A DNA stretch of 44,992 bases, from assembly GCA_025458915.1 (NCBI GenBank), contig JALORL010000002.1:1-44992 (forward strand), read 5' to 3'. A program made the translations under genes and the position numbers. The first letter of the stretch is position 1. Each line of letters opens with the position of its first letter. This DNA is from Hydrogenophaga sp. GTDB taxonomy: Bacteria > Pseudomonadota > Gammaproteobacteria > Burkholderiales > Burkholderiaceae_C. Positions 3,033 to 42,190 of this stretch are shown here, one piece after another. The notes beneath the pieces were generated by a model. It did no database searches and was not told the DNA's origin. It was given only the letters and a program-made list of their open reading frames with translations.

Positions 3033-4463
3033 ATGAGCCAACGACCGGAAAAGTCCAACACATTGCAAGATCTCGCGCCGCTTGCGCCGGAGCTTGCATT
3101 GGCGTTGGCTGCGGTTTCCAGCGATGTGGCCATGGTGATTGACAGCTCGGGCGTGATTCGCAACGTGTCCGTTGGAAACCCGAAGCTGTCCGAGGCCACG
3201 CGCGACTGGGTGGGGCGCCACTGGAGCGACACCGTGGCCAAGACCTCCCGCGGCAAGGTGGAGCAACTCATTGGCGAGGCCAGCTCGGCTGGCTTGGCGC
3301 GGCGGCGCGAAGTGAACCTCATGGCCGACGGATCGGCCGGCATCCCCATCGCCTATTCGGCCATCCGGCTCGGCGATGACGGACCGTTGATTGCGGCGGG
3401 CCGCGACCTGCGCGCCATCGCCGCCATCCAGCAGCATTTCATCCAGACGCAGCAGGACCTGGAGCAGTCCTACTGGATCCGTCGCCAGAACGAAGCGCGT
3501 TACCGCTTGCTGTTTCAGGTCGCCACCGATGCCGTGCTGGTGGTGGACGCCTTGAGCCTTCAGGTGGTGGAGGCCAATCCGGCTGCAGCAGAGCTGCTCG
3601 GCAGTGGCGCGGACCTTCTGGTGGATTCGGAGGCACAGCGGTGGATCGAGCCACCCTTGCGACCCGCCTTCACCGAGCTTCTCGTTGCTGCGCGTACCAC
3701 GGGTCGACCCTCCGAGATCCGAACCCGCCTTGCGCACGGCAGCGCGCGGGTGGCCGTGGCCGCCACGCCATTTCGTGCCGACAATACCCTGCTGCTGATG
3801 GTGCGTGTTCGCCCCATGGATGCACTGGATCCTTCGGGGCAGATCCACCCCTCCGAGCTGGTGGAGAAAATGCCCGATGCGGTGGTGGTCACCGACTCCA
3901 ACGGTTCCATCCTCATGTCCAACCCCGCGTTTTCGCGTCTGTGCGCGGCGGGCAGCAACGCCCCTCTGAAAGGGCGCCACATCGAGTCGGTGCTGGCAGA
4001 GCTGGAGCCGCACATGGCCCACCTGGTGGGTGAGGCCCGTCGGCGTGGCCTGGCCGGGCCGGTCCTGGTTTCGCTGCGATCGGCCGATCTGGGGGCCCTT
4101 CGGGTGGAAGTGGTGGCCACCATGCTCGATGAAGGCGATCAGGAGTGCATTGGCCTGAAGCTGCGCATCCTGCGCTCCGAGCCTCCGCCGCTGGCCCAGG
4201 CCACCGACGAACTGAGCCGTGCACTGGGCCTGCTCCTGGCGCAGCTGGGCGAACAGAAGCTTGACCAGCTTGTCGACCGGGCCGCCCGCCTGGTGCAGAA
4301 GCATCTGCTGGGGACCGCCCTGGAGCGGGCAGACGGCGACAGGAGCGCCGCGGCCCGGACACTGGGTATCTCGCTCACAGAGCTCGAAGGGCGTCTGTTC
4401 GAAATCGGTCTCGAGGAGCTCTCCCTGCCTGGTCCTTCGCAACCGTCCGGTTTTCTCAATTGA
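3033..4463 (+). CDS. ppsR: PpsR/CrtJ-like transcriptional regulator (PAS domains plus C-terminal Fis-type HTH)
   Basis: 476 aa; PAS-like segments (VAMVIDSSGVIRNVSVGNPKLSE; DAVLVVDALSLQVVEANPAAAELLG; DAVVVTDSNGSILMSNPAFSRL) and a C-terminal Fis-like HTH (ALERADGDRSAAARTLGISLTELEGRL). Adjacent to a bacteriophytochrome gene. Confidence 0.85.
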   Translation: MSQRPEKSNTLQDLAPLAPELALALAAVSSDVAMVIDSSGVIRNVSVGNPKLSEATRDWVGRHWSDTVAKTSRGKVEQLIGEASSAGLARRREVNLMADGSAGIPIAYSAIRLGDDGPLIAAGRDLRAIAAIQQHFIQTQQDLEQSYWIRRQNEARYRLLFQVATDAVLVVDALSLQVVEANPAAAELLGSGADLLVDSEAQRWIEPPLRPAFTELLVAARTTGRPSEIRTRLAHGSARVAVAATPFRADNTLLLMVRVRPMDALDPSGQIHPSELVEKMPDAVVVTDSNGSILMSNPAFSRLCAAGSNAPLKGRHIESVLAELEPHMAHLVGEARRRGLAGPVLVSLRSADLGALRVEVVATMLDEGDQECIGLKLRILRSEPPPLAQATDELSRALGLLLAQLGEQKLDQLVDRAARLVQKHLLGTALERADGDRSAAARTLGISLTELEGRLFEIGLEELSLPGPSQPSGFLN

Positions 4464-4479
4464 ACTTCCCGGGCGGATT

Positions 4480-4495
4480 GGTCGGTCGACCGACC
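4480..4495. promoter_or_regulatory. 16-bp perfect palindrome GGTCGGTCGACCGACC in the ppsR-bphP intergenic region
   Basis: Read directly: ...GGATT GGTCGGTCGACCGACC GGGCG...; an 8-mer half (GTCGGTCG) also occurs at 2996-3003 upstream of ppsR. Function unknown. Confidence 0.4.
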
Positions 4496-4545
4496 GGGCG
4501 CCTCCCGCTGTCCCCCAAAACCGTTTCCAGAGTACGCCGCTGACC

Positions 4546-6744
4546 GTGTCCAACAGCCCTGCCTTCGGTCAGGCCGACCTGACCAACTGCGAGCGTGAGC
4601 TCATCCACCTGGCCGGCTCGGTGCAACCGCACGGCGTGATGCTGGTGGTGGACCCGTCCCTGTGGACGCTGGTGCAACTGAGCGCCAATGTCGATACCTT
4701 GCTGGGGCACCCGCCTGAGACGCTGCTTGGCAAGCCGTTGTCGGTGCTGGGCGGCAACCTGGCGGACCGTGTGCGAAGCATGGCCAGCAAGATGGCACTG
4801 ACGGAGCCCGAACCGCTGCTGGCCGAACTGCAACAGGGTGCGGTCGAAGGCAGCCTGCACCGGATCAGCCCTGATTGTCTGGTGGTCGAGCTGGAACCCT
4901 TGTGGGGTGGCGCCGGCCATGTCCACACCGTGGCCACCAGCGCTGCGCAGCTGCAGCAGCAGCTTTCGGCCAGCATGGCCACGTTCTCCAAGGCCTCCAG
5001 CGTGGCCCAGCTTGCCGACGCCGCCGCCAAGGCCTACCGCGAGCTCACCGGCTACGATCGCGTCATGGTGTACCGGTTCGACCCGGATGGCCACGGCAAG
5101 ATCATTTCCGAAGCCCGGCATCCGCGCCTGGAATCGCTGCTGGGGCACCACTACCCGGCGTCCGATATTCCGCAGCGCGCCCGCCAGCTTTACATCCGCA
5201 ACCGGCTGCGCGTGCTGGTTGACGTGAACTACACGCCTGCGCCGCTGGTGCCGCGGGAGCTGCCGGCCACCGGAGCCGACACCGACATGTCTTTGTGCGC
5301 CCTGCGCAGCATGTCCCCGCTGCACCTGCAGTACCTCAAGAACATGGGGGTAACCGCGACCCTGGTGGTGTCCCTGGTGTATGAGGGCAAGCTGTGGGGG
5401 CTGGTGGCTGCCCACCACTACACGCCGCGCAATCTGCGTTTTCCGGTGCGCGCCGCAGCCGATCTCATGGCCGAGGTGATCAGCACTCGGCTCGCAGCCA
5501 TTGAAAACTATGCCCACGCACAGGTGGCCATCCAGGTGCGGCGGCTGGAGCAGCGGCTGGTCGAAGCCACCTCTACCGAAGGCGACTGGCGCTTCGCACT
5601 GATGCGCAATCCCCGAACCCTCCTGCAGCCGCTGGACGCCACGGGTGCGGCGCTGTTTCACGAGGGGGAAATCCTCACCACGGGCGATGTGCCATCCACG
5701 CCGGAACTGCGCGCGTTGCAGGAATGGGTGGCTGCCCAGCCGAAGGACGTTCCCTACGCCTGTTCATCCATGTCGCGCGAGAACCCGGCGCTGGCCTCGC
5801 TCACGCCCACGGCCAGTGGTGTGCTCGCGGTGCGGCTGTCGGGCGCCCGGCCCGACTTCCTCATGTGGTTCCGCAAGGAACAACTTGCCTCGGTGACCTG
5901 GGCAGGCGACCCGGCCAAGGTGGTGGTCGGCAACGATCCCATGGAGCTTTCGCCGCGGAGGTCGTTTGCGGCCTGGTCGGAGATCGTGCGGGGAACGGCG
6001 GTTTCCTGGACGGGTGCAGATGTGGCGCTGGCCCGTGCGCTCGGCCTGGCGCTGGTGGACATCATCGTGCAGGTGCAGGCGGTGCGTTACCTCATTGCCG
6101 ATCATCAGCTGCAGCAGATCCGCACCGGCATGCAAAGCGCGAGCGAAGCCGTCCTGATCGCCAGCACGGACGGGCAGGTGGTTTTCAGCAACCAGGCCTT
6201 CCTGTCCCTGGCCGGGCCAGCCAGTGGCGAGTGCGCCAGCCTCGACGCAGTGGCCAGCCTGTTCAGCGAAGCCGATGCCGTGCGTGACCTGCTGGTTCGC
6301 CTGCGCCACGCCCACCAGCCGCTTCGGGCCGAACTCAGCCTGTTGCGGGGCATGGAGACCGACCAGCCGGTGGGCCTGCGCGCCGAAGCCGTGCCCGGTG
6401 TAGGTGGCGCCCCGATCGGATTCATCCTGGTGCTGAGCGACCTGCGCGATGTACGCCGTGCCGAGGCCGCGCGCCGCCAGCTGGACGCGTCCCTGGGGCC
6501 TGCCGCTCGGGGCGCACTCGGATCCCTGGATGTTGTCGGCCTGAACGGTGACGCCAGGCAGGATGCACTGGTCAGCGATCCGGTGGTCAGCGCCATCTTC
6601 ACCAACGTGTCGCTCGCGGCCATGGACATCGCCGATTCGGCCACGGGTCCGACCGTGGCACCGTTGCTGGAACAGCTGGAGTTGTCGGCGCGCAGGGCCG
6701 CCGCGCTTTATGAGCACATCAGGGAACGTGCGGCAAAGGACTGA
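4546..6744 (+). CDS. bphP: Bacteriophytochrome (PAS-GAF-PHY photosensory module plus C-terminal PAS/helical region, no recognisable histidine kinase)
   Basis: GTG start at 4546 in frame with the 4219..6744 ORF: (M)SNSPAFGQADLTNCERELIHLAGSVQPHG (biliverdin-binding Cys15), GAF motifs PASDIPQRARQLYIRN and RSMSPLHLQYLKNMGV, PHY tongue-like WFRKEQLASVTWAGDP and PRRSF. The C-terminus ends in ...AIFTNVSLAAMDIADSATGPTVAPLLEQLELSARRAAALYEHIRERAAKD. Confidence 0.93.
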   Translation: MSNSPAFGQADLTNCERELIHLAGSVQPHGVMLVVDPSLWTLVQLSANVDTLLGHPPETLLGKPLSVLGGNLADRVRSMASKMALTEPEPLLAELQQGAVEGSLHRISPDCLVVELEPLWGGAGHVHTVATSAAQLQQQLSASMATFSKASSVAQLADAAAKAYRELTGYDRVMVYRFDPDGHGKIISEARHPRLESLLGHHYPASDIPQRARQLYIRNRLRVLVDVNYTPAPLVPRELPATGADTDMSLCALRSMSPLHLQYLKNMGVTATLVVSLVYEGKLWGLVAAHHYTPRNLRFPVRAAADLMAEVISTRLAAIENYAHAQVAIQVRRLEQRLVEATSTEGDWRFALMRNPRTLLQPLDATGAALFHEGEILTTGDVPSTPELRALQEWVAAQPKDVPYACSSMSRENPALASLTPTASGVLAVRLSGARPDFLMWFRKEQLASVTWAGDPAKVVVGNDPMELSPRRSFAAWSEIVRGTAVSWTGADVALARALGLALVDIIVQVQAVRYLIADHQLQQIRTGMQSASEAVLIASTDGQVVFSNQAFLSLAGPASGECASLDAVASLFSEADAVRDLLVRLRHAHQPLRAELSLLRGMETDQPVGLRAEAVPGVGGAPIGFILVLSDLRDVRRAEAARRQLDASLGPAARGALGSLDVVGLNGDARQDALVSDPVVSAIFTNVSLAAMDIADSATGPTVAPLLEQLELSARRAAALYEHIRERAAKD

Positions 6745-7402
6745 CGTCCGCAGGGCGCGCCAGTTCCTCGAAAACGCGCACGTGCTGTCCGAAAGCCCAA
6801 CAGGCTTCTTCGATCACGGCATCCGTCTCCGCTGGCGATAGCGGCAGGGCGTCCAGCGCCTGTCGAAGAGCGCCAATGTGGCCGGCCACCACATCGGCCG
6901 AGCCAAAGTGGTAGAAATCCAGACCTCCCGCTTCGGCGGAGGACCGCCATGGAAACGCGTCCCGAACCACGCGGGCCAGCACCTGACCGCCGTGGAGGTC
7001 GCCCAGGTAACGCACATAGGCATGTGCCACCAGACGCGGCGAGGACCCGCGCCCCAGAGTTTCGAGGCGACTCACGTAAGCCCGCATGCCGGGCACCAGC
7101 GGTACCGCCGGATCTGTCACCGGTGCCCCATAAGCCGACAGGTCGCGCTCAATGGCCATTTGGCGGAACAGGGCAGGTTGGCACACCGGGCCCACCTTCG
7201 CGTCGGACTCGCAGCTTTGCAGGGCCTTCTCCAGCGCGGCATACAAAGCCTGCAGGTTTTGCAGCAAGGCAACGTAACCGGGCAGACCCAGCCGTCCACG
7301 GAGCAAGTCGCGCATCACGCCAGTGCGCTCAGCCTCGGCATGCAGCGTTCGGGTGCCCGAGCGCAAGCGCGCGCTGAGCAAGTGGGGGGATACATCGTGC
7401 AT
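6719..7402 (-). CDS. bphO: Biliverdin-producing heme oxygenase
   Basis: 227 aa with a heme oxygenase core: SGTRTLHAEAERTG (candidate proximal His) and VAHAYVRYLGDLHGGQVLARVV. Convergent with bphP; the 3' ends overlap (6719-6744). Confidence 0.9.
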   Translation of the reverse strand: MHDVSPHLLSARLRSGTRTLHAEAERTGVMRDLLRGRLGLPGYVALLQNLQALYAALEKALQSCESDAKVGPVCQPALFRQMAIERDLSAYGAPVTDPAVPLVPGMRAYVSRLETLGRGSSPRLVAHAYVRYLGDLHGGQVLARVVRDAFPWRSSAEAGGLDFYHFGSADVVAGHIGALRQALDALPLSPAETDAVIEEACWAFGQHVRVFEELARPADVSPLPHVP

Positions 7403-30777: not shown

Positions 30778-32082
30778 GTGAGCAACATGGCAGAGAAACT
30801 CTGTGCCGTCAAAGGCATGAACGATATTCTTCCCCCGGCCTCGTCCCATTGGGAATGGCTGGAGGACAAGCTGCGTTCCCTCGTGCAAGGTTATGGCTAC
30901 CGGAACCTGCGAACGCCCATTGTTGAGCCTACTGCCCTGTTCATCCGTGGCCTCGGCGAGGTCACCGACATTGTCGAGAAGGAAATGTATTCCTTTGAGG
31001 ACCGTCTCAATGGGGAACACCTGACCCTTCGGCCGGAGAACACCGCGGGCGTGGTGCGTGCGGCCATCGAGCATTCCCTGACCTACGACGGGGGAAAACG
31101 CCTGTACTACATGGGGCCGATGTTCCGCCACGAACGGCCCCAGCGGGGGCGCTACCGGCAGTTCCACCAGTTCGGTGCGGAAGCGCTGGGCTATGCCGGT
31201 CCGGACATTGACGCGGAATTGATCATCATGGCGTGCGACCTCTGGCGTACGCTGGGACTGACCGGCATCGAGCTTGAGATCAACAGCCTGGGGCAGGCCA
31301 CGGAGCGCCAACAGCACCGCAAGGCGTTGATCGATTACCTCGAAGGCCACATCGACCTCCTCGACGAAGACGCCCGCCGCCGGCTGCACTCCAATCCATT
31401 GCGCATCCTGGATACCAAGAATCCCGCCATGCAGGAACTGGTGGAGGGCGCGCCACGTCTCATGGATCACCTGGGAGCTGAGTCCTTGGCGCATTTCGAG
31501 CGCCTGCGCGCGCTGCTCGATGCACATGGAGTGGGCTACCGCATCAATCCCCGTCTTGTGAGGGGCATGGACTATTACAACCTCTCGGTGTTTGAGTTCG
31601 TCACCCGACAGTTGGGGTCGCAGGGTACGGTATGCGCCGGTGGGCGCTACGATGGATTGTTTGCCCAGATTGGCGCCAAGACTGTGCCGGCCGTGGGGTG
31701 GGCAATGGGTATGGAGCGCGTGCTGGAACTCTTGAACGAACAATCGCTGCTGCCCCGGCAGCTGGCTCCGGATGCCTATGCGGTTGTGCCCGATGCCGCT
31801 CACCTACCGAAGGTCATGCCGGTGCTCAGAATCCTGCGACAGTGCGGCGTAGGCGTACAGATGCACGCGGCTGGGGCCGAAGGGCAGGGCAGCATGAAAT
31901 CCCAGTTCAAGAAGGCGGATGCCAGTGGCGCTCGGTACGCCCTCATTTTCGGCGCCGACGAACTTGCACAAGGGCGTGTGTCGGTCAAGACGCTGCGGCA
32001 ACCGGATGGGTCCGGCACTCCCATGCAGATCCTTCTCTCCCTCGAAGAAGTCCCGGAGTGGGCGAACCGGTTGAAGACCTGA
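30778..32082 (+). CDS. hisS: Histidyl-tRNA synthetase
   Basis: [76 protein letters not shown] 30778 or ATG 30787. Confidence 0.96.

Positions 32083-39602: not shown

Positions 39603-42190
<2,588 letters not shown>

Follow-up and report, generated by a model that had tools for sequence, protein, structure and literature searches.

Loss of DNA-reading residues from a phytochrome-linked PpsR suggests a protein-binding adaptor between a far-red sensor and canonical PpsR

The window analyzed here, a stretch of 44,992 nucleotides, is one whole contig (C301) of a Hydrogenophaga sp. genome of 3.19 Mb that is 81% complete. Three genes of a putative light-sensing module lie towards its left end: a gene for a BphP-linked PpsR paralogue of 476 residues (3033..4463, + strand), a bacteriophytochrome gene, bphP, encoding 732 residues (4546..6744, + strand), and a bphO/hmuO-like heme oxygenase gene (6719..7402, - strand), the product of which (PF01126, E 9e-44, 150 bits) is expected to supply biliverdin. 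Coordinates and domain searches bear out all three genes named in an earlier note on this DNA. The note also called them contiguous, which holds for their presence at one locus, but the heme oxygenase gene lies on the opposite strand, convergent with bphP and overlapping its 3′ end by 26 bp, and thus does not form a single operon with the other two. Upstream of the module the contig extends for only 3 kb, which limits the view of any linkage to the photosynthesis gene cluster on that side. A PrkA-type serine protein kinase gene (1-1905, - strand) and a small methyltransferase gene (2128-2907, + strand) occupy this interval; a DNA search of 11 congeneric genomes gave no match to the kinase region. 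As the note had described, the ORFs scanned elsewhere on the contig are of the housekeeping kind, comprising, besides the PrkA kinase, lpd, an AFG1 ATPase, a helicase, a pseudouridine synthase, rlmN, rodZ, ispG, hisS, bamB, der, an hflX-like GTPase, two Band_7 genes, purA and others. Two genes of the tRNA-synt_His family are present (30778-32082 and 39603-40778), one of which is probably hisZ-like. On the far side of the module, an NlpC/P60 gene and its divergent neighbor are kept in two related genomes (G024 and G022), in both of which NlpC is followed by a PDH-type operon instead of the module.

The phytochrome comprises PAS_2, GAF, PHY and PAS domains by Pfam and is closest to the solved structures of RpBphP1 (4gw9, E 1e-163; 5oy5, E 4e-146), at 45% identity. 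Its reading frame is open further upstream, but no start codon other than the GTG at 4546 closely precedes the chromophore cysteine. Alignment with RpBphP1 places this expected biliverdin attachment site, Cys15, within LTNCERELIHLAGSVQPHG (codon 4588..4590, + strand), and both the YPASDIPQ (DIP) motif and a PRRSF tongue of the PRxSF form are present. The output half consists of a PAS domain at residues 524-632 (PAS9) and a C-terminal two-helix output sensor, or HOS (6463..6741, + strand), which aligns with 11 alpha-, gamma- and betaproteobacterial BphPs including that of Rhodopseudomonas; no kinase family was found. The function of the HOS has been described (PMC6899989). By these sequence features, the protein is a full type-3, RpBphP1-like phytochrome. 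The same BphP type, a ppsR gene directly upstream, an opposite-strand heme oxygenase gene nearby and a second PpsR in the genome are found with RpBphP1–RpPpsR2 of Rhodopseudomonas palustris and BrBphP–PpsR2 of Bradyrhizobium, and the relationship to these pairs proposed in the note is upheld.

The linked PpsR has the N-domain, Q-linker, PAS1, PAS2 and C-terminal HTH order of PpsR/CrtJ. It narrowly passes the NCBIfam PpsR-CrtJ equivalog TIGR02040 (278.1 bits, cut-off 275.4) and matches the PpsR structure 4hh2 at E 8.7e-35, which is also the best Foldseek fold match of its AF2 model (pLDDT 81); its identity to the proteins of Rhodopseudomonas and Bradyrhizobium is only 28-29%. The Q-linker helix, the dimerization platform (residues 126-163; 3408..3521, + strand), retains Q133, Q140, E144, W148 and R151 in 26/26 linked PpsRs of the window's clade. 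By column counts, the clade has lost the PAS2 Arg-Leu pair while the Q-linker is very strongly conserved; in the window PAS2 (3840..4166, + strand) this pair is Gly-Pro. It corresponds to R339/L340 of R. sphaeroides PpsR, a tetramer contact (PMC3949515). Phylogeny did not separate an origin of the window-type proteins as sisters of the alpha-type from an origin among the cluster PpsRs, and a joint clade was not rejected (p-AU 0.51).

A further departure lies in the Fis-type HTH (residues 410-460; 4260..4412, + strand), the fold of which is predicted to be intact but the DNA-facing residues of which are lost. In window numbering, Asn436, Arg437, Arg448 and Gln449 occur together in 72/73 alpha- and gammaproteobacterial BphP-linked PpsRs and 26/27 cluster PpsRs (98/100 jointly), and in 0/26 of the window clade. 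The window protein keeps only R437 of the four NR...SRQSLY DNA-contact residues, with Leu at position 448, which we take by analogy to be the position of the main base-contacting Arg of Fis. Its recognition helix (4371..4409, + strand) reads SLTELEGRLFEIG instead of SRQSLYVKLRRYG. A profile of the canonical HTH gives at least 73.5 bits for held-out canonical proteins and at most 34.2 bits for the window clade (window, 24.7 bits) with no overlap, a separation that is descriptive as training and test sequences share ancestry. Ala429, Ala441, Leu444 and Gly445, which are structural positions, are retained throughout the clade or nearly so. The redox cysteine of the HTH is absent, and this is not decisive because it is also missing in most PpsR2 proteins (PMC6899989). 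The groups could not be told apart by the net charge of the helix over the stretch compared, which was shifted and too short. The note had called this protein a DNA-binding repressor. That description is not supported, since the DNA-reading residues are gone from the window protein and its clade, and are retained in a second PpsR of the same genome. These alignments indicate that the linked PpsR of the whole clade has lost its DNA-reading residues while keeping the fold core and Q-linker.

The HTH nevertheless folds in the model, passes the Pfam HTH_8 cut-off (27.8 bits against 22) and is under purifying selection, and hence does something. The HTH and PAS parts have dN/dS values of 0.19 and 0.16 in the window clade, 0.04 and 0.25 in cluster PpsRs, and 0.05 and 0.13 in alpha/gamma linked PpsRs (four, six and seventeen pairs over the three groups, four of them being the window-clade sample). 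On these codon comparisons, the HTH of the window clade, measured against the PAS part, is less constrained than in both other groups, although still under purifying selection. The main rival explanation follows from these properties: the linked PpsR may still bind DNA at an altered, lineage-specific operator, with BphP controlling a new gene set. The full-length recognition helix, the ordered three-helix HTH of the AF2 model (pLDDT about 90, overall pTM 0.37, in an alignment whose canonical relatives may favor that fold), the HTH_8 score and the purifying selection in close pairs all fit this proposal, as do genera that keep a helix sequence of their own. Arg-rich tails in the linked PpsRs of some relatives could also touch DNA. 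We consider an altered operator unlikely, as hardly any two genera share the same recognition helix, which in many is shortened or broken by Pro or Gly and in the window is acidic, and as the HTH has been deleted outright in a second lineage.

This second lineage is a genus (g170) of f30, a different family within the order, whose linked PpsRs fall in the alpha-type clade. The HTH is absent in four of its six genomes and degenerate in two; where it is absent, the ppsR frame stops behind PAS2 and is followed directly by bphP. A named betaproteobacterial record, Ga0077526 (L152), looks identical to one of these genomes (G680). In a tree built without the HTH, the f30 proteins stand apart from the window clade, and HTH function has therefore been lost at least twice. 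Alpha/gamma loci in general keep the HTH, including that of a Burkholderiales MAG (L123), and every f30 genome of this kind has a canonical cluster PpsR.

No puf, bch, crt or puc gene was found among the ORFs scanned in the 45-kb window, in agreement with the note, and their absence is explained by the contig ends. The search of the full genome that the note had proposed located pufL and pufM on contig C115, while an ORF reading of contig C348 revealed bchH-bchB-bchN-bchF, followed by aerR and the second PpsR, bchG and bchP. This canonical aerR-ppsR protein is 32% identical to the window PpsR and shares its domain order, but retains the canonical HTH with LCIEAALELTGDNRASAAEMLGLSRQSLYIKLRRFG and sits in the photosynthesis gene cluster. 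A consensus PpsR operator, TGTCATTTTTTCTTGACA, lies between the canonical ppsR and bchG (L008:8472-8489).

Operator sites also bear on whether the locus is simply an ordinary BphP–PpsR2 pair, repressing at TGT-N12-ACA until BphP lifts the repression in far-red light. Gene order, BphP type and the TIGR02040 match are those of such a pair. Against this, the protein lacks residues that its DNA-binding relatives invariably carry, and TGT-N12-ACA is at chance frequency in the window (six occurrences, 5.2 expected) with none near the module; this reading is accordingly very unlikely. Imperfect operator-like sites upstream of the window ppsR scored no better than shuffles. Near-perfect operators, TGTCAATTGATATTGACA and TGTCAATTTATATTTACA, do precede linked ppsR-bphP in G022 (L032:8828-8845) and G102 (L185:3171-3188), about 140-180 bp upstream of the aligned linked-ppsR start, suggesting that canonical PpsR likely controls the module in these two genomes.

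Within the family, a BphP of the window type was detected in 29 of 401 genomes, spanning 17 of 141 genera, a recurrence far beyond chance. Nearly all of these genomes have ppsR upstream and a convergent heme oxygenase gene; within the same genus, only G022 of 35 other genomes has BphP. In a first set of 30 genomes, reaction-centre genes occur in 28 and a pair of PpsRs (E 1e-30) likewise in 28; in about 20, either pufLM or the cluster PpsR is found on the contig of the module, no more than about 62 kb away. Eight further BphP genomes of the order all have reaction-centre genes, for a total of 36/38. The module mostly lies inside or adjoins the photosynthesis gene cluster in relatives, and adjoins aerR-ppsR in G022. 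The note had raised the possibility of a transplantable far-red switch with non-photosynthetic targets, and the setting of the module beside housekeeping genes, unlike in G022, would suit it. This tight co-occurrence with reaction-centre genes, the position in or near the cluster in most relatives, and the pufLM, bch and aerR-ppsR genes of the genome itself leave that proposal scarcely credible. Searches of plasmids for relatives returned only distant kinase-type phytochromes.

Canonical PpsR is kept in all but two of the 38 genomes. G432, rated 100% complete with 5% contamination, has reaction-centre genes and an altered linked PpsR, with no canonical PpsR at E 1e-30; neither PpsR was found in G333. 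These two genomes, and G608 described next, speak against the adaptor reading set out below. In the cultured phototroph Roseateles depolymerans, the photosynthesis cluster contains ppsR together with a 'crtJ homologue' (PMC10037100). Two variations on the module raise the question of whether the linked PpsR is a decaying leftover, with BphP acting directly on canonical PpsR or having lost its role. G608 (L192) encodes BphP and heme oxygenase with no PpsR gene within 1.5 kb on either side, and its genome has only the canonical PpsR. In one genus (G448, L181:9099-11171; G254, L183:8133-10211), an additional BphP-like protein that shares 39% identity with the window BphP and is devoid of the chromophore Cys and DIP motif is encoded beside an altered PpsR in the photosynthesis cluster; the tongue is also missing in L181, and an intact BphP with heme oxygenase is found elsewhere in the same genomes. 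Both cases are compatible with decay, which is quite unlikely for the clade at large given that the N-domain, Q-linker and HTH core are strongly conserved over many genera, dN/dS is 0.16-0.19, and the linked PpsR is kept beside bphP nearly throughout.

The loss of DNA-reading residues in the linked PpsR and its counterparts suggests that the sensor probably acts via a protein-binding adaptor rather than a DNA-binding repressor. On a narrow balance of probability, we read the module as a far-red sensor linked to canonical PpsR by a DNA-blind PpsR paralogue, acting as adaptor or anti-repressor. Heme oxygenase would make biliverdin, which BphP would bind, switching in far-red/red light; its HOS helices would then bind the neighboring PpsR-like protein. 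The far-red-lit state of RpBphP1 binds RpPpsR2 through the HOS in a 2:1 complex (PMC6899989). Having kept its dimerizing N-domain, Q-linker and PAS1, and lost the HTH DNA-contact surface and the PAS2 tetramer contact, the paralogue would no longer read the PpsR operator, and may act on canonical PpsR by forming mixed oligomers. R. sphaeroides PpsR without its HTH still forms dimers and tetramers, and its DNA binding requires oligomerization (PMC3949515). In view of such HTH-free oligomers, a paralogue whose Q-linker is intact and whose DNA surface is gone fits an anti-repressor or adaptor on canonical PpsR. If far-red-lit BphP takes the paralogue away, repression would be strengthened; if BphP bridges the two, repression would be lifted. 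Light-dependent binding, the formation of mixed oligomers, the identity of the target and the sign of the light response are all inferred here. A more specific proposal, that linked PpsRs turned at least twice into DNA-blind, phytochrome-gated anti-repressors working through mixed oligomers, and may thereby reverse the far-red response, is plausible if somewhat short of an even prospect. In the event of such a reversal, far-red light would strengthen repression, which fits aerobic phototrophs.

The textbook example of photosynthesis genes under far-red control, RpBphP1–PpsR2, has also been widely adopted in optogenetics. Both RpPpsR2 and its Bradyrhizobium counterpart PpsR2 repress photosynthesis genes (PMC10569730), and the linked PpsRs of these genera keep the HTH, whereas the window PpsR is without DNA-reading residues. 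AppA–PpsR, AerR/PpaA–CrtJ and LdaP–PpsR resemble the present proposal in that PpsR is relieved through contact with a light-responsive protein; AppA, for example, binds the Q-linker of PpsR (PMC3949515). The anti-repressors of those systems carry flavin or B12 and are not related to PpsR, whereas the intermediary proposed here is itself a PpsR paralogue, coupled to a phytochrome. Within optogenetics, Q-PAS1 is an engineered, short, HTH-less BphP1 partner derived from PpsR that does not bind DNA; the present proteins are natural, whole N-Q-PAS1-PAS2 proteins without a DNA-reading HTH. No description of such HTH loss was found in the largely open-access literature searched.

The loss is hidden by standard annotation, as the window protein still passes the PpsR equivalog and HTH_8 cut-offs. 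A clade that has lost DNA reading and a lineage that has deleted the HTH suggest that the light signal can pass by protein contact alone. Overall, these proteins provide natural HTH-free candidates for BphP partners, and allow a clear and inexpensive test of the way in which a light sensor changes over from one regulator to a paralogue of it.
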